From NCBI GenBank assembly GCA_017883185.1, contig JADGOB010000010.1, positions 1-55,970 on the forward strand: 55,970 bases of DNA. Direction: 5' to 3'. The position numbers and the translations under genes were made by a program. Below, piece after piece: positions 6,920 through 44,931 of the stretch. How positions within the stretch are numbered: the stretch's first letter is position 1; every line of letters starts with the position of its first letter. The notes under the pieces are model-generated. The model was not told where the DNA came from, did not search any database, and worked only from the letters and a program-made list of their open reading frames with translations. Source of the DNA: Acidobacteriota bacterium (GTDB taxonomy: Bacteria > Acidobacteriota > Vicinamibacteria > Vicinamibacterales > Fen-181).

Positions 6920-7046
6920 ACTTAGTACTTCGACTCGCAATTACGGCCACGATCGGCTCTCGGCGCACGTGGCCGGTTGTGCTCGCTCAGCACTTAGTCC
7001 TGAGGGCACAAATACGTCACCGTATTTGTGCATCGAAGGACTTAGT
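6920..7046 (-). repeat. family 1 structured repeat, copy 1 (127 bp)
   Basis: This 127-bp element matches the segment at 44805-44931 in inverted orientation at all but about five or six positions. Read on the minus strand it begins ACTAAGTCCTTCGA and ends TCGAAGTACTAAGT, imperfect terminal inverted repeats (12 of 14). Inside is a perfect 11-bp stem, GCACAAATACG with CGTATTTGTGC, closed by the tetraloop GTGA, framed by AGTCCT/AGGACT. A second stem is CGGCCACG with CGTGGCCG. The TAA stop of the upstream YqgE-type gene (7042-7044) lies inside its first bases. It could be a MITE/REP-like element or a structured RNA in a 3' untranslated region. Confidence 0.85.
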
Positions 7047-11530: not shown

Positions 11531-11542
11531 CGGCCGCGCCTA

Positions 11543-11609
11543 AGACAGATTCCAGGGACCCCACAGAGACTTGCTTCATTCGTGACGATCTCAGCCCTGG
11601 AAGATGTCT
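11543..11609 (-). repeat. family 2 repeat, copy A (67 bp)
   Basis: On the minus strand the element runs from AGACATCTTCCAGGG to CCCTGGAATCTGTCT, 15-base arms that pair at 13 positions and leave an internal TC/TC mismatch. The same length and mismatch occur at 14703-14769 and 17868-17934. It begins inside the TAG stop of the quinone oxidoreductase gene and is followed by TAGGCGCGG, as in other copies. Confidence 0.85.
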
Positions 11610-12579
11610 AGACCGTCAAGACCACTTTCCCGTGCGCTCCCGGCGACATCACGGCTTCGTGCGCGAGCCTCGCGTCCGCCAGCGAGAACTCGCGGCCGAT
11701 GACCGGCCGCAGCGTGAGGTCCCGCAGGCCCGCGCCCACGGCCGCGTGAATCTCCGCCATCTCCCGCGGCGACGTGTTGAACAGGATCATCCCGCGAATG
11801 TCCGCGTCCCTCGCCATCGTCTGACGTGGATCGATCTCGACCGTGCCGCGGTTGCCGATGACGATGACCCGGCCGTTCCTTGCGAGCAGGCCGAGGTCGC
11901 GGTTGAGGTTGACGTTGGCCAGCATCTCCAGGATGACGTCGATGCCGCGCCCGCCGGTGGCCGCCATGATCTGATCCGCGTAGTCGGTGCCCCGGTGGTT
12001 GAACGCGTGCGTGGCTCCCACCGCTGAGACCTGCGCGAGGCCGCGGTCGGTGCCCGCCGTCGCCAGCACCACCATGCCGGCTGCGCGGGCGAGCTGGATG
12101 GCGGCGGTGCCAACGCCGCCGCTGCCCCCGTGCACCAGCACCCACTCACCGGGCTTCGCCTGCGCCCGCTGGAACAACGCGCGGTAGGCGGTGCCGTAGG
12201 GCACGCCCACCGCCGCTCCCTGCTCGAACGACACGCTGTCGGGCAGCGAATACACATGAGCGAGATCGCAGACGGCCATCTCGGCGTACGCGCCGTAAGC
12301 GCCCTCTGAGGTGCCGGTCATGTAGACGCGGTCGCCGAGGGAGAACATGGCGACGCCCGAGCCACGCGCCTCGATCGTCCCGGCGGCGTCGACCCCCGGC
12401 GTGTACGGCAGCGTCGGACGTCGGGCGTACGCGCCCTTGCGAATGTAGTGGTCCACCGGGTTCACGCCAACGGCGTGGATCCGCACCAGCACCTGGCCGG
12501 GCCCGGGGACCGGGTTCGGCAGCTCCTCCAGCCGCATCACCTCCGGCTCTCCAAACTCACGAACGACGATCGCCTTCAC
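11608..12579 (-). CDS. NADPH:quinone oxidoreductase, zeta-crystallin type (MDR superfamily)
   Basis: A 323-residue cytoplasmic oxidoreductase expected to reduce quinones or enones with NADPH. The N-terminal GroES-like domain contains GVNPVDHYIRKG and YTPGVDAAGTIEARG. The Rossmann domain has GGSGGVGTAAIQLA, and zinc-binding cysteines are lacking, as in the quinone oxidoreductase branch. I start at the GTG at 12577-12579 because GGAGG lies five bases upstream and the product then begins MKAIVVREFGEPEVM, the usual N-terminus. The ORF as such extends upstream to 12690 without conserved sequence. Its TAG stop coincides with the edge of a family 2 repeat. Confidence 0.93.
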   Translation of the reverse strand: MKAIVVREFGEPEVMRLEELPNPVPGPGQVLVRIHAVGVNPVDHYIRKGAYARRPTLPYTPGVDAAGTIEARGSGVAMFSLGDRVYMTGTSEGAYGAYAEMAVCDLAHVYSLPDSVSFEQGAAVGVPYGTAYRALFQRAQAKPGEWVLVHGGSGGVGTAAIQLARAAGMVVLATAGTDRGLAQVSAVGATHAFNHRGTDYADQIMAATGGRGIDVILEMLANVNLNRDLGLLARNGRVIVIGNRGTVEIDPRQTMARDADIRGMILFNTSPREMAEIHAAVGAGLRDLTLRPVIGREFSLADARLAHEAVMSPGAHGKVVLTV

Positions 12580-14702: not shown

Positions 14703-14769
14703 AGACATCTTCCAGGGCGGAGGTCGTCACGGTTGAAGCAAGTTTCTGTCGGTCCCCTGGAATCTGTCT
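14703..14769 (+). repeat. family 2 repeat, copy B (67 bp)
   Basis: It has the same 67-base length and the same arms as copies A and C (AGACATCTTCCAGGG and CCCTGGAATCTGTCT with the conserved TC/TC mismatch). It lies 21 bases behind the argR stop in the same orientation, and is followed by a small GC hairpin, AGCGC/GCGCT, at 14770-14786, just before the argG promoter. Confidence 0.85.
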
Positions 14770-14787
14770 CAAGCGCAGGCCGCGCTC

Positions 14788-17672: not shown

Positions 17673-17951
17673 ATGAGCGACCGTCCAGCGGCCATCAACG
17701 GGAAGCGCAACCAGGCGTGGGGAACGCTGCATGCCTGCCCCGCGTGCGGGCAGTGCCTGTGCTTCGGCTGTCATCCGACAGGGCCGTGCGTGGACGATGC
17801 CGCGCATGCCGACGGTGTGGCGGTCGGCAGCCACCCGGCATCGGCGTTCACCGCGACCGGCTTCGCTAGACATCTTCCAGGGCTAAGATCAAAACGGTTG
17901 ATGCAAGTTTCTGTGGGGCCCCTGGAATCTGTCTTAGGCGCGGCCGGTTGA
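17673..17951 (+). CDS. small cysteine-rich protein, 3' end running into a repeat
   Basis: A 92-codon ORF with GGGGAG eight bases before the ATG and a good promoter upstream. I do not recognise it. Residues 22-43 carry a dense cysteine group, CPACGQCLCFGCH followed by PTGPC, that could hold zinc or an Fe-S cluster. From about residue 66 the frame enters the family 2 repeat (17868-17934) and stops inside its GC hairpin, so the last ~27 residues are repeat-derived. The original 3' end may have been lost. Third positions are GC-rich as in neighbouring genes. It may be a real small protein regulated with arginine synthesis, or a decaying gene. Confidence 0.5.
   Translation: MSDRPAAINGKRNQAWGTLHACPACGQCLCFGCHPTGPCVDDAAHADGVAVGSHPASAFTATGFARHLPGLRSKRLMQVSVGPLESVLGAAG
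17868..17934 (+). repeat. family 2 repeat, copy C (67 bp)
   Basis: The third full copy, with arms AGACATCTTCCAGGG and CCCTGGAATCTGTCT at the same spacing and with the same TC/TC mismatch as copies A and B. The middle has drifted slightly (AAAACGGTTGATGCAAG). It overlaps the 3' end of the Cys-rich ORF and leads directly into the GC hairpin at 17938-17961. Confidence 0.85.
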
Positions 17952-35188: not shown

Positions 35189-36562
35189 TCAAGGATGGAT
35201 CGCAAGCTCTCTTATCCTGTGTCTCCACGTCAGGACGAGGAACACGCCGATGGCAACCAGCCCCAGGGAGAGGCCGACCCACAGGCCCACGACCCCCCAA
35301 CCCCACCAGAAGCAGAGCGCATAGCCGACCGGCAGGCCGAGGAGCCAGTGACCGGCCAGGTTGCTGAGCATCGGCGTACGCGTGTCGCCAAGCCCGCGCA
35401 GCACGCCCGTGGACACGCCCTGCAGGCCGTCGAACAACTGAAACATCGCCGCGACGAGCAGGAGCTGACGGCCCATTGCCAGCACGGCCTCGTTCGACGT
35501 GAATATCCCGATGAGCGGCCGTGGGACGGCGATGAAGATGAGTGCCGCGGTGGACATGAAGCCGGCGCCGAGGATCAGCGCCACCCACCCTGAGCGGGAT
35601 GCTGCCTGCGCGTCGCGTCGCCCGATCGCGTGGCCGACACGTACGGCGCCCGCCGACGCCACGCCGAGCGGCACCATGAACGTCAGGCTGGCCAGGTTGA
35701 GCGCGATTTGATGGGACGCGAGCGACACGGGATCGAGGCGTCCGGCGAGGGCGCTCGCGGCCGCGAAGACGCCGAGCTCCAGCATCACTTGCGTCGCGGC
35801 CGGAAGCCCGAGGCGCAGCAACCGGACGAGGCTTCGCTTCTTGGGCCTCCAGGTGATGGTGAACAGGCTGATATGGTGCTGTCGGTCGTACCACTCCACA
35901 GCCGCGAGCAGGACGGCCGCCAGGTAGATCCGCGAGATAAGCGTGGCCACGGCGGATCCGGTGGTCCCCATCGCCGGAAGCCCAAGATGCCCGTACACCA
36001 GCGCCCACGCGGCGACCGCATTGATGAGGTTTGCCGTGACGAGTGCGAACGTGATCGGTGCGACGATGCCCAGCGCCTGCAGGTAGCGGCGGAACGACGC
36101 GTAGAGCAGCAGTGGGAGCAGGCTCCACGTGATCACGTGCAGGTAGGGCACGGTGAGCGACAAGACCTCGGGCGGGAACCCCCAGGACGGCAGCAGCAAG
36201 ATCCCGACAAGCGCGACCGCGGTCAGAACCGGTGCGCCGATCAGGCTGAGCAGGATGCCGTGCAGCAGCCACCGATGACACTCGTCGAGGCGCCCGGCGC
36301 CGTAAGCGTGCGACACGAGCGTGTCGAGGCCCAGCAGCAGCCCCATGCCGAAAATAGCCAGCGCCAGGAAGAGGATGCTGCCGATGCCGACCGATCCGAT
36401 CGCCGCCGGGCCCAGGGGCCCGACGATGATCGTATCGACGATGCCCATCATGACCCAGCCGACCTCGGCCAGGACCACCGGGCCCGCCAGCGCGAGCATC
36501 GGCTGAAGTTCGTCGCGAAAACGCACGCCAGCCACTATGACCAAATCCGGCTCACGGCTCAA
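35189..36562 (-). CDS. MATE-family multidrug/cation exporter (NorM-like)
   Basis: A 457-residue inner-membrane protein with 12 predicted helices in two homologous halves. The first half contains the DTIIVGPLG and GLDTLVSHAYGAG segments, and the second has the corresponding GVASAGAVRVGHAIGRRDAQAA and FQLFDGLQGVSTGVLRGLGDT. It should expel organic cations or toxins in exchange for H+ or Na+. The start at 36562 is the longest; a GTG at 36532 (VAGVRF) could also serve. It is monocistronic and divergent from the first M28 peptidase gene. Confidence 0.92.
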   Translation of the reverse strand: MSREPDLVIVAGVRFRDELQPMLALAGPVVLAEVGWVMMGIVDTIIVGPLGPAAIGSVGIGSILFLALAIFGMGLLLGLDTLVSHAYGAGRLDECHRWLLHGILLSLIGAPVLTAVALVGILLLPSWGFPPEVLSLTVPYLHVITWSLLPLLLYASFRRYLQALGIVAPITFALVTANLINAVAAWALVYGHLGLPAMGTTGSAVATLISRIYLAAVLLAAVEWYDRQHHISLFTITWRPKKRSLVRLLRLGLPAATQVMLELGVFAAASALAGRLDPVSLASHQIALNLASLTFMVPLGVASAGAVRVGHAIGRRDAQAASRSGWVALILGAGFMSTAALIFIAVPRPLIGIFTSNEAVLAMGRQLLLVAAMFQLFDGLQGVSTGVLRGLGDTRTPMLSNLAGHWLLGLPVGYALCFWWGWGVVGLWVGLSLGLVAIGVFLVLTWRHRIRELAIHP

Positions 36563-36630
36563 GGCCCAAGACGCGGCGCCTGGTGTAGAATCCTCCCTGT
36601 CGAACCCAGCCCTCGTCCAGGAGTCAAGAT

Positions 36631-38328
36631 ATGAATCGCTCGTTTGTCGTGGTCTTGTCGATGTCGGTCGCCGCGCTGGCCGGAGCGTGCGGCGGCGCTT
36701 CCACCCCGGCGCCGGTGCCGAACGCGGAAGCGGCGGTCTCGTTCCCCGCGATTGACGGCACCCTGGTGCTGGAACACACGAAGGTCCTCGCGTCCGACCA
36801 GTTCGAGGGACGCGCGCCCGGCACGAAGGGCGAAGACCTGACTGTCGCCTACATCACCGATCAGTTCACCAAGGTCGGCCTGAAGCCGGGCAACCCCGAC
36901 GGAACCTACATCCAGAAGGTGCCGATGGTTGGCATCACCCCCGATCAGAAGGCGGTGCTGTCGTTCCGCAAGGGCGCGAAGGAGCAGAAGCTCGCGTGGC
37001 GCGACGATTTCGTGGCCTGGACGAAGCGCGTGGCCGACACGGTCAGCGTGGACAAGTCCGATCTGGTGTTCGTGGGCTACGGCGTCCAGGCGCCCGAGTT
37101 CAACTGGGACGACTACAAGGGGATCGACCTGAAGGGCAAGACGATGGTCGTGCTGGTTGGCGACCCGCCGGTGCCCGATCCGGCCGACGCCGCCAGGCTC
37201 GATCCCAGGGTATTCGGCGGTCGCGCCATGACCTACTACGGCCGCTGGACCTACAAGTACGAGATGGGGCAGAAGATGGGCGCAGCCGCGGTCCTCATCG
37301 TCCACGAGACGGGGCCCGCCGGCTACCCGTTTACCGTCGTCCAGGGCAAAATTGCCGAGCAGTTCAGCCTGGTGGCGCCCGACAGGAACATGAGCCGCGC
37401 GGCGGTCGAAGGGTGGATCTCGCTCGACCAGGCGAAAAAGCTGTTTGCGCTGGCCGGCAGGGATTTCGACGCCGCGAAGAAGGACGCGGCGACGCCCGCG
37501 TTCAAGCCGGTGCCGCTCGGCACGACCGCCTCGGTCACGCTGCGCAACACGATCCGCACGGTCGACTCGAGGAACGTCGTGGGCCGGATCGAGGGCAGCG
37601 ACCCGGTGCTCAAGAACGAATATGTGATCTACACATCGCACTGGGATCACTTCGGGATCGGCGCGCCGGTGAATGGCGACAAGGTGTATCACGGCGCGGT
37701 GGACAACGCGACGGGCATCGGCGGGACGATCGAGCTCGGCCGCGCGTTCGCGAAGATGCCCGTGGCTCCGAAGCGTTCGATTCTGTTCCTGGCCGTGACG
37801 GCGGAAGAGCAGGGATTGCTCGGCTCGGGCTACTACGCCGCCAACCCGCTGTACCCGCTGGCGAAGACGATCGGCGTGATCAACATGGATGCCCTGAACG
37901 TCAACGGGAAGACGAAGGACATCACCATCACCGGGCTGGGGAACTCCGAGCTGGACGCCTACGCGACGAAGGTCGCGGCCGAGCAGGGGCGTGAGATTCG
38001 GGCCGACCCCGAGCCGGAACGAGGCGGCTTCTATCGATCCGACCACTTCCCGTTCGCACAGCAGGGCGTGCCCGCGCTTGCGAGCGGTGGCGGCATCGAC
38101 TTCATCGGCAAGCCGCCGGGATGGGGCAAGGAGCACTCGGACGCCTACACGGCGAATGACTATCACAAGCCGTCCGACAAGGTGAAGCCGGAGTGGGAGA
38201 TGAGCGGCGCCGTGCAGGACCTCCAGTACTACTGGATGGTCGGCTACCGGCTGGCGCAGGCCGAGAAGTTTCCGCAGTGGAAGCCGGGAACCGAGTTCAA
38301 GGCGAAGCGCGACGCGATGTTGAAGTGA
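36631..38328 (+). CDS. M28-family zinc peptidase lipoprotein (first of a tandem pair)
   Basis: A 565-residue lipoprotein with lipobox LAGAC (Cys20). It is an M28 aminopeptidase with a protease-associated (PA) insert in the middle. Zinc-site motifs are SHWDHFG, HGAVDNATGIGG, TAEEQGLLGS, NMDALN and YRSDHFPF, covering the His, Asp, Glu, Asp and His positions of the family. It should remove N-terminal residues from peptides on the cell surface. The next gene is a close paralogue. The region before the ATG contains GTCCAGGAGTC, a usable ribosome binding site. Confidence 0.92.
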   Translation: MNRSFVVVLSMSVAALAGACGGASTPAPVPNAEAAVSFPAIDGTLVLEHTKVLASDQFEGRAPGTKGEDLTVAYITDQFTKVGLKPGNPDGTYIQKVPMVGITPDQKAVLSFRKGAKEQKLAWRDDFVAWTKRVADTVSVDKSDLVFVGYGVQAPEFNWDDYKGIDLKGKTMVVLVGDPPVPDPADAARLDPRVFGGRAMTYYGRWTYKYEMGQKMGAAAVLIVHETGPAGYPFTVVQGKIAEQFSLVAPDRNMSRAAVEGWISLDQAKKLFALAGRDFDAAKKDAATPAFKPVPLGTTASVTLRNTIRTVDSRNVVGRIEGSDPVLKNEYVIYTSHWDHFGIGAPVNGDKVYHGAVDNATGIGGTIELGRAFAKMPVAPKRSILFLAVTAEEQGLLGSGYYAANPLYPLAKTIGVINMDALNVNGKTKDITITGLGNSELDAYATKVAAEQGREIRADPEPERGGFYRSDHFPFAQQGVPALASGGGIDFIGKPPGWGKEHSDAYTANDYHKPSDKVKPEWEMSGAVQDLQYYWMVGYRLAQAEKFPQWKPGTEFKAKRDAMLK

Positions 38329-38381
38329 CCACCCGACCGGGGCGACGCTCACCTCACGCGACCGTCGTCTCGTCCGAACCA

Positions 38382-38440
38382 GTCCGGGAGGGGTTTGTCG
38401 AACCCTCTCGGACCGGTCCGGGAGTCGTCGTCTTTCTTTT
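38382..38440 (+). terminator. stem-loop and T-rich tract between the M28 paralogues
   Basis: GTCCGGGAGGGGTT pairs with AACCCTCTCGGAC around TGTCG, with a single bulged G and one G-T pair. TCTTTCTTTT follows about 17 bases later, just before the second gene's GTG. It could attenuate read-through, leaving the second paralogue at lower expression. Confidence 0.55.
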
Positions 38441-38455
38441 GACAGGGGTGGCTCC

Positions 38456-40129
38456 GTGAAAATCAGGCTGGGGGTCTTCGTCGCCTCGGGGGTCGTCATC
38501 GCGGCGCTCGGCTGGTTCGTGCTCTACGCCCTGAAGCCGGCACGACCGGCGGTCGTGGCGTTTCCGTCGATTGCGGCGGACGCCGTGCTGCGACACACGA
38601 AGGTGCTGTCGTCGGACGAGTTCGAGGGACGGGGGCCGGCCACCCGTGGCGAGGAACGAACGGTCACCTATATCGCCGATCAGTTGAAGGCGATGGGGCT
38701 GAAGCCAGGAATGCCGAACGGCAGCTACTTCCAGAACGTGCCGCTCGTCGGCATCACGCCTGACCCGTCGGCCACGCTGGTCTTCCAGAAGGGCGCGACG
38801 AAACAGACGCTCGCGTTCAAGGACGATTTCGTGGCGTGGACGAAGCGGATGACCGAGTCGGCGACCCTCGACCGGTCCGAGATGGTGTTCGTCGGCTACG
38901 GTGTCCAGGCGCCCGAGTTCAACTGGGACGACTTCCAGGGGATCGATTTCAAGGGTAAGACACTGGTCGTGCTGATCGGCGATCCGCCCGTGCCCGATCC
39001 TGCCGATGCGGCCAGGCTCGATCCCAGGGTGTTCGGCGGATCGGCCATGACGTATTACGGCCGCTGGACGTCCAAGTTCGAGATGGCGCAGAAGCTGGGC
39101 GCCGCCGGTGCGCTCATCGTGCACGAGACCGGCCCGGCCGGCTATGCCTACTCCGTCGTCCAGGTGAAGGTCGGCGAGCAGTTCGACATTGCGAGGCCGG
39201 ATGGCAACATGACGCGGGCGGCGGTCGAGGGCTGGATTCCGATCGAGAAGGCCCGGGCCCTGTTCACGATGGCCGGGAAGGACTTCGACGCGTTGAAGTC
39301 GCTGGCGGCCACGCGCGAGTTCCGCCCGGTTCCGCTGGGCGTCACGGCGTCCACGGTGTTGAAGAACACGCTCCGCAACGTGGCATCGCGGAACGTGATC
39401 GCCAGGGTGGAGGGGAGCGACCCGTCGCTGAAGAACGAGTACGTCCTCTACACGTCGCACTGGGACCATTTCGGGATCGGCGCGCCGCTCAACGGCGACC
39501 CGGTGTATCACGGCGCCGTGGACAACGCGGTGGCTGTCGCCGGCTTTCTCGAGGTGGCGCGCGCGTTCGCCGCGCTGCCGACGCCGCCGAAGCGCAGCAT
39601 CGTCTTCCTCGCGGTCACCGCCGAGGAACAGTTGATGCTCGGGTCCGAGTACTACGCGTCGAACCCGGTCTACCCGCTCGACAAGACGCTCGCCGTCATC
39701 AACCTCGAGATGCTGAACGTGCACGGGAAGACCCGCGACCTGACGGTGGTGGGCCTCGGGACGTCCGATCTTGACGACTACGCGCAGCAGATCGCGAAGG
39801 AGCAGGGACGCACGCTGAAGCCTGATCCCGAGCCGGAGCGCGGGATGTACTACCGCTCCGACCATTTCTCGTTCGCGCGCCGCGGCGTGCCGGCGTTCGA
39901 GCCCGATCATGGCGACGACTACATCGGCAAGCCGGCGGACTTCGGCGCCGAGGTACGGAAGGACTTCTTCACGAACCTCTACCACAAGCCGACCGACACG
40001 GTGAAGCCGGACTGGGACTTGAGCGGCGGCGTGCAGGACCTGCAGTTCTACTGGATGATGGGATACCGGGTGGCGCAGGCGGACAAGTACCCGCAGTGGA
40101 AACCCGGCACCGAATTCCGACGACAGTAG
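38456..40129 (+). CDS. M28-family zinc peptidase (second of a tandem pair)
   Basis: A 557-residue paralogue of the preceding gene, with the same motifs in order: SHWDHFG, HGAVDNAVAVAG, TAEEQLMLGS, NLEMLN and YRSDHFSF. The last acidic zinc-site residue reads NLEM here and NMDA in the first copy. The lipobox is absent; instead residues 5-26 form an uncleaved-looking membrane anchor (GVVIAALGWFVLYAL). It starts with GTG at 38456. Shared stretches such as DPRVFGGSAMTYYGRWTSK next to the first copy's DPRVFGGRAMTYYGRWTYK show an obvious local duplication followed by a change of membrane anchoring. Confidence 0.92.
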   Translation: MKIRLGVFVASGVVIAALGWFVLYALKPARPAVVAFPSIAADAVLRHTKVLSSDEFEGRGPATRGEERTVTYIADQLKAMGLKPGMPNGSYFQNVPLVGITPDPSATLVFQKGATKQTLAFKDDFVAWTKRMTESATLDRSEMVFVGYGVQAPEFNWDDFQGIDFKGKTLVVLIGDPPVPDPADAARLDPRVFGGSAMTYYGRWTSKFEMAQKLGAAGALIVHETGPAGYAYSVVQVKVGEQFDIARPDGNMTRAAVEGWIPIEKARALFTMAGKDFDALKSLAATREFRPVPLGVTASTVLKNTLRNVASRNVIARVEGSDPSLKNEYVLYTSHWDHFGIGAPLNGDPVYHGAVDNAVAVAGFLEVARAFAALPTPPKRSIVFLAVTAEEQLMLGSEYYASNPVYPLDKTLAVINLEMLNVHGKTRDLTVVGLGTSDLDDYAQQIAKEQGRTLKPDPEPERGMYYRSDHFSFARRGVPAFEPDHGDDYIGKPADFGAEVRKDFFTNLYHKPTDTVKPDWDLSGGVQDLQFYWMMGYRVAQADKYPQWKPGTEFRRQ

Positions 40130-40194
40130 GACGAGCGTCCCCGCCGCGGTCGCGGAACCCCACGGCACGCGTCGTGAGGGTCAATCGCGGGCGG

Positions 40195-44804: not shown

Positions 44805-44931
44805 CCTAAGTCCTTCGATGCACAAATACGGCGACGTATTTGTGCCCTCAGGACTCAGTGCTGAGCGAGCACAACCGGCCACGAGCGCCGAGAACCGATC
44901 GTGGCCGTAATTGCGAGTCGAAGTACTGAGG
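44805..44931 (+). repeat. family 1 structured repeat, copy 2 (127 bp)
   Basis: The inverted partner of 7046-6920, starting 12 bases after the topoisomerase stop in the same orientation. The main stem GCACAAATACG/CGTATTTGTGC is unchanged, while the tetraloop is GCGA here and GTGA in copy 1, both GNRA. The CGGCCACG/CGTGGCCG stem is also intact, and changes fall mostly in loops and terminal bases. The last 21 bases include TTGCGA, the likely -35 box of the PfkB gene. Confidence 0.85.

Follow-up and report, generated by a model that had tools for sequence, protein, structure and literature searches.

An inverted pair of 125-nt sequences, 96% alike, lies in the window (the whole stretch of DNA that was analysed, 55,970 nt from an Acidobacteriota genome) and raises the question of whether selection on a folded RNA or the mobility of a DNA repeat accounts for it. 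The initial annotation had argued for a selected RNA structure rather than a plain DNA repeat. We find that the pair belongs to a MITE-type family that extends across phyla, is absent from the literature we searched and has at its centre an unusual triplet that follows the insertion target. It is probably a non-autonomous mobile element, built of two related hairpins in inverted order around a common central CTNAG, which is moved in trans and whose hairpins self-correct.

A twin-hairpin element in two copies

Both copies follow the plan N1-hairpin 1-N2-hairpin 2-N3, in which N1, N2 and N3 are CTNAG pentamers (Table 1). In forward order, as found in copy B, this reads N1 - TCCTTCGA - 11-bp stem with tetraloop - CTCAGGA - N2 - TGCTGAG - hairpin 2 - TCGAAGTA - N3. 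Hairpin 1 resembles the reverse complement of hairpin 2, so the element can be described as two related hairpins in inverted order around a shared pentamer. The inverted-repeat body has the ends GTMCTTCGA. Terminal inverted repeats (CTNAG-TCCTTCGA / TCGAAGTA-CTNAG) are present in the anchored copies, a finding for which the same anchors had served to locate the copies and the alignment provides a second source.

Brought into a common orientation, copies A and B show 7 mismatches over 127 positions, two at the outermost flanking bases and five inside the 125-nt element: one in the tetraloop (GTGA/GCGA), one in N2 (CTAAG/CTCAG), two in the hairpin-2 loop and one in N3 (CTAAG/CTGAG). Neither the 11-bp stem nor the 8-bp CGGCCACG/CGTGGCCG stem carries any change. 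The initial annotation had placed the copies correctly with about five or six differences, and its unchanged 11-bp stem, variable tetraloop and retained 8-bp stem all reappear in our comparison; its list of changes included the tetraloop and missed those in N2 and N3, which are the informative ones. On either strand, both copies fold far more stably than dinucleotide shuffles (z -5.4 to -7.0).

Next to copy A, the AlgH-like gene takes its stop codon from the TAA of that copy's N1, and about twenty upstream open frames across the copies end exactly in N1. We considered a preference for stop codons and rejected it, as computed empty sites showed no enrichment over the available CTRAG sites (13/80 vs 15/137, p 0.30). 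Copies lie in either orientation relative to neighbouring genes, and apparent overlaps with open frames are probably often spurious frames of GC-rich DNA. Elsewhere in the window, two adjacent open frames of ~600-650 aa (36559-38499 and 38354-40168 (-)) are 73-84% alike in stretches of their DNA, a probable tandem gene duplication.

Table 1 Features of the two element copies in the window and motif of the element ends
Feature	Position	Strand	Remark
Copy A, whole 125-nt element	6921..7045	-	Convergent gap between ABC-2 permease gene and AlgH-like (DUF179) gene
Copy A N1, read as CTAAG on the minus strand; one of the two target-duplication copies	7041..7045	-	G001 empty site: single CTTAG
Copy A hairpin 1: TCCTTCGA - 11-bp stem - CTCAGGA	6998..7040	-	
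Copy A tetraloop GTGA	7017..7020	-	
Copy A N2, internal pentamer CTAAG	6993..6997	-	Not complementary to copy A's duplication
Copy A hairpin 2: TGCTGAG ... TCGAAGTA	6926..6992	-	Contains the 8-bp CGGCCACG/CGTGGCCG stem
Copy A N3, CTAAG	6921..6925	-	Other copy of the target duplication
Copy B, whole 125-nt element	44806..44930	+	Flanked by gyrA and PfkB-family carbohydrate kinase gene
Copy B N1, CTAAG	44806..44810	+	
Copy B hairpin 1	44811..44853	+	
Copy B tetraloop GCGA	44831..44834	+	
Copy B N2, CTCAG	44854..44858	+	Complementary to copy B N3 CTGAG
Copy B hairpin 2	44859..44925	+	
Copy B N3, CTGAG	44926..44930	+	
Element ends, two-ended motif			Left TNA-GTMCTTCGATTC, right GAATCGAAGSAC-TNA

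Insertion sites and distribution

A BLAST search of the element's own genome (G000, 395 contigs) gave 19 match places, three of which are short or reverse-strand self-matches, leaving ~16 separate copies, 12 of them complete by all anchors. No copy examined contains a gene, and in this the element behaves as a MITE.

N1 and N3 are a target-site duplication generated by insertion at CTNAG. For copy A, the sister genome G001 (contig C182) retains the empty site: ACTTAGTGCACG occurs there once, whereas in the window CTTAG flanks the element on either side. The surrounding sequence is 96-98% identical to that in the window. Three further copies (L003, L006 and L007) are nested in the terminal CTTAG of another repeat, which is uninterrupted elsewhere in the window. 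Beyond the single empty site in G001 and these nested copies, the evidence is statistical: across eight genomes, the N1 core equals the N3 core in 50 of 80 copies, compared with 19.7 by within-genome permutation (0/5000). CTNAG positions 2-4 tend to covary and positions 1 and 5 vary independently, so the duplication is probably the TNA inside CTNAG. At the site of copy B, G001 holds the element as well; in G002 and G004 both flanks match, at a divergence too great for the junction to be read.

The repeat that receives these nested copies is itself dispersed in the window (14703-14776, 17868-17941, 11531-11611 (-)). It has the form AGACATCTTCCAGGGC...CCCTGGAATCTGTCTTAG, spans ~74-81 nt with copies 85-89% alike, and its end CTTAG is the target of the twin-hairpin element in L003, L006, L007 and L036. 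At what appears to be the same site of this repeat, the element lies in opposite orientations in L003 (G000) and L036 (G001), reflecting either independent insertions or an inversion in place.

The element is patchily distributed, occurring in 10 of the 60 genomes searched (G000 included), with dozens of copies in related Vicinamibacterales (Acidobacteriota). Scanning 84,980 species genomes for the pattern yielded 71 stretches from Acidobacteriota, Desulfobacterota, Nitrospirota, Bacteroidota/Ignavibacteria and Brocadiaceae, one of them on a 4.7-Mb chromosome record. Because most of the records are MAGs, a given taxon label could reflect a binning error. As we read them, the listed copies have the common form CTAAGTCCTTCGATTCATAAATTCGATGACGAATTTATTCACTCAGGACTTAGTGCTGAGTGAGCA - ~25-30 variable bases - AAATACGTCACCGTATTTGCGAATCGAAGCACTAAG. 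The element matched no Rfam family at gathering score and nothing in the plasmid, phage and viral collections, and literature searches with the repeat sequences returned nothing relevant to it.

Partial matches that we fetched are copies of the element with other small palindromes inserted at the hairpin loops or the centre. In stretches L255-L268 (G060, G062, G063; other phyla), extra short palindromes such as CCGTTCGGCCCGAGCTCACGGCCGAGG have inserted next to the centre or at the tip of hairpin 1; some are nested in each other, and identical insertion places are reused. Palindromes of the CCTTCGACAGGCTCAGGGTCATCCCGAG type lie within the element or replace part of it in L128 (G022 C37), L139 and L176 (Nitrospirae MAG). 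They have a CCTTCGA...CTCAGG core in common with hairpin 1 and may belong to a wider related family.

Stem pairing and the internal triplet

The initial annotation had proposed covarying pairs as a check on its structure, and these are present. Among 132 distinct sequences of hairpin 1, double-sided compensated cells numbered 202, whereas shuffling gave 72 on average and 89 at most; these cells count sequences rather than events, and relatedness inflates them. Covariation by itself does not exclude a DNA-level cause. Selection on RNA is expected to favour G-U over A-C, and on the modelled strand we found 76 G-U pairs and 93 A-C mismatches. A GNRA tetraloop occurs in 31 of 35 copies of the own genus and 35 of 44 in genome G010; it occurs in only 6 of 53 in the cross-phylum set, whose loops are mostly ATGA, ATTA or ATAA. 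With G-U no commoner than A-C and GNRA not kept outside the lineage, strand-specific selection on RNA is unsupported. The conserved GNRA loop that the annotation had read as a sign of RNA holds in the own genus and G010 and fails in the other phyla. One-sided stem mismatches are numerous too, so the uncompensated stem mutation that it had set against a selected structure does occur, alongside compensated change.

A selected structured RNA that has itself spread, an mRNA 3'-end element or a small RNA whose required folding makes stems and feet covary, would explain the excess over shuffles, the strong folding, the GNRA loops in the own genus and G010 and the frequent position of copies beside gene ends. 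The counts of G-U and A-C, a GNRA loop that is not kept in other phyla, target-duplicating insertion in either orientation relative to genes and a frequency of stop-codon insertion no higher than the available CTRAG sites give all argue against it, and we regard this explanation as improbable. The maintenance of pairing seen by the initial annotation thus stands, and its step to RNA is not supported, the element being a mobile DNA repeat that duplicates its target site and for which an empty site exists.

The internal triplet, which ought to be ordinary element sequence, behaves unexpectedly. In G000 the centre of N2 is the most variable internal site (mean pairwise difference 0.74 vs 0.11 elsewhere), as variable as the duplications themselves. 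Where the local duplication is intact, N2 is its reverse complement in 36 of 50 copies, compared with 17.3 expected (0/5000 permutations). In an enlarged set the same holds for 85 of 112, including the unusual cores TAC, GAA, CAA, AAA and TAG. The association is also found in single sets, namely G000 (6/10, p 0.025), G000+G001+G003 (9/17, p 0.002) and G010 alone (10/13, p < 0.0001). Copies that are closest to each other but sit in different targets have one N2 in common (L003/L004, 99.1%; L167/L199; L150/L200), whereas in several pairs at ~96% identity each N2 matches its own target. N2 therefore seems to be carried in at insertion and rewritten later. Nearest-neighbour identity, a crude measure of age, does not separate copies with matched and unmatched N2 (p 0.97).

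For N2 to follow flanks that are specific to each locus, either a process must act inside each copy or pairing must be under selection. The reading we favour, as yet unproven and drawn from comparison of the copies, is self-templated hairpin correction. After insertion, a replicating strand would fold back and take its own arm as the template (quasipalindrome template switching). N2 would thereby be rewritten to complement its new flanks, and the stems would stay paired without selection at the RNA level. Any effect on host genes, such as putative 3'-end hairpins on mRNAs, would be secondary. Selection for paired feet could reach the same end state as rewriting. In a MITE of the same kind, natural selection acting on a hairpin or cruciform of the DNA, for instance as a binding site for a transposase or host factor, would then keep both the complementarity of N2 and the pairing of the stems. 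The foot motifs TCCTTCGA and CTCAGGA are kept across phyla and the feet are paired at 84-94%, which speaks for such selection. N2, however, varies beyond every other internal site in G000 and matches local non-consensus flanks, an unlikely preference for any trans-acting factor, which leaves this explanation a lesser possibility that we consider rather unlikely. We hold it unlikely, too, that some transposition step or targeting rule actively sets the triplet to the complement of the insertion site, a new copy then briefly recording the site of its source. If true, this would amount to a kind of target-site memory; we know of no description of such a memory for transposons.

Mobilisation and relation to known repeats

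The short duplication and the terminal inverted repeats lead us to guess at movement in trans by a DDE-type transposase. Neither a gene-bearing or autonomous copy nor a transposase bounded by these ends was seen in the 11 genomes with mapped ends, where paired ends lie less than ~300 bp apart (in G010 and G022, both statements refer to the matches listed). The one promising candidate for a long autonomous copy, a 1.9-kb end pair at L196, proved to be two separate copies. Many described MITEs have no known parent element.

IS608 follows a logic of guide and cleavage-site pairing, and our element resembles it in having two hairpins with conserved feet and, between them, a sequence that is complementary to either end. 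An HUH/Y1 single-strand element, mobilised as in IS200/IS605 or by a RAYT and thus REPIN- or PATE-like, could use N2 as a guide that pairs with both cleavage sites and chooses the target, as the match of N2 to the target in most copies would suggest. The variable right-end triplet, however, equals the left-end one, i.e. it is a duplication, and to our knowledge IS200/IS605 insertion makes none. The closest pairs with the same N2 occupy different targets, and we accordingly rejected guide-type targeting by N2. RAYT/Y1 was also set aside as a mobiliser: PF01797 (Y1_Tnp/RAYT) had no match in G000, G001 or the 100%-complete G022, which holds at least 15 copies of the element, and the Y1 genes of other hosts are not flanked by it. 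An HUH/Y1 origin is, in our estimation, very doubtful.

Among known repeats, the element is most readily compared with MITEs such as RUP, NEMIS/Correia, ERIC and MITEAba12, which are likewise short, gene-less and multicopy, with terminal inverted repeats, a short duplication, strong hairpins and mostly intergenic positions. The target duplication of RUP, NEMIS and ERIC is TA, whereas here it is TNA within CTNAG; moreover, each half of the element forms a hairpin of its own, the sequence at the internal centre follows the target, and no parent insertion sequence was found. IS200/IS605 guides and the derived PATEs have an internal sequence complementary to flanking or cleavage sequence and subterminal hairpins, as does our element. 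They differ in lacking a target duplication and in their fixed right end, where here the right-end triplet varies with the left and the newest copies do not have their target set by N2. With REP, BIME and REPIN sequences the element shares paired palindromic hairpins in inverted order, intergenic location and covarying stems (PMC3733652, PMC3116915). By definition, a REP palindrome bears a GTAG (or CGTC) tag at one of its ends (PMC3733652), whereas here the feet are CTNAG-TCCTTCGA, a GTAG/CGTC tag was not seen, a duplication is present and G000 has no associated RAYT.

Quasipalindrome correction by template switching is described for E. coli and yeast in passages of PMC7202029 and PMC3820800, where imperfect inverted-repeat arms gain complementarity by self-templating, as we propose for the element. 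These passages concern reporter genes and mutation hotspots; here the substrate would be a mobile element's internal triplet together with its flanks. So described, it predicts both paired stems and rewriting of N2, and we infer its action in this family.

Hairpin covariation is routinely read as a sign of functional RNA, and here it is strong in a mobile DNA repeat without a sign of selection on RNA. If self-templated correction is confirmed, the family would call for caution in covariation-based RNA discovery, and its copies would serve as natural replicates in which template-switch mutation could be measured in uncultured bacteria. That the element has spread across phyla points to a mobiliser with a broad host range.
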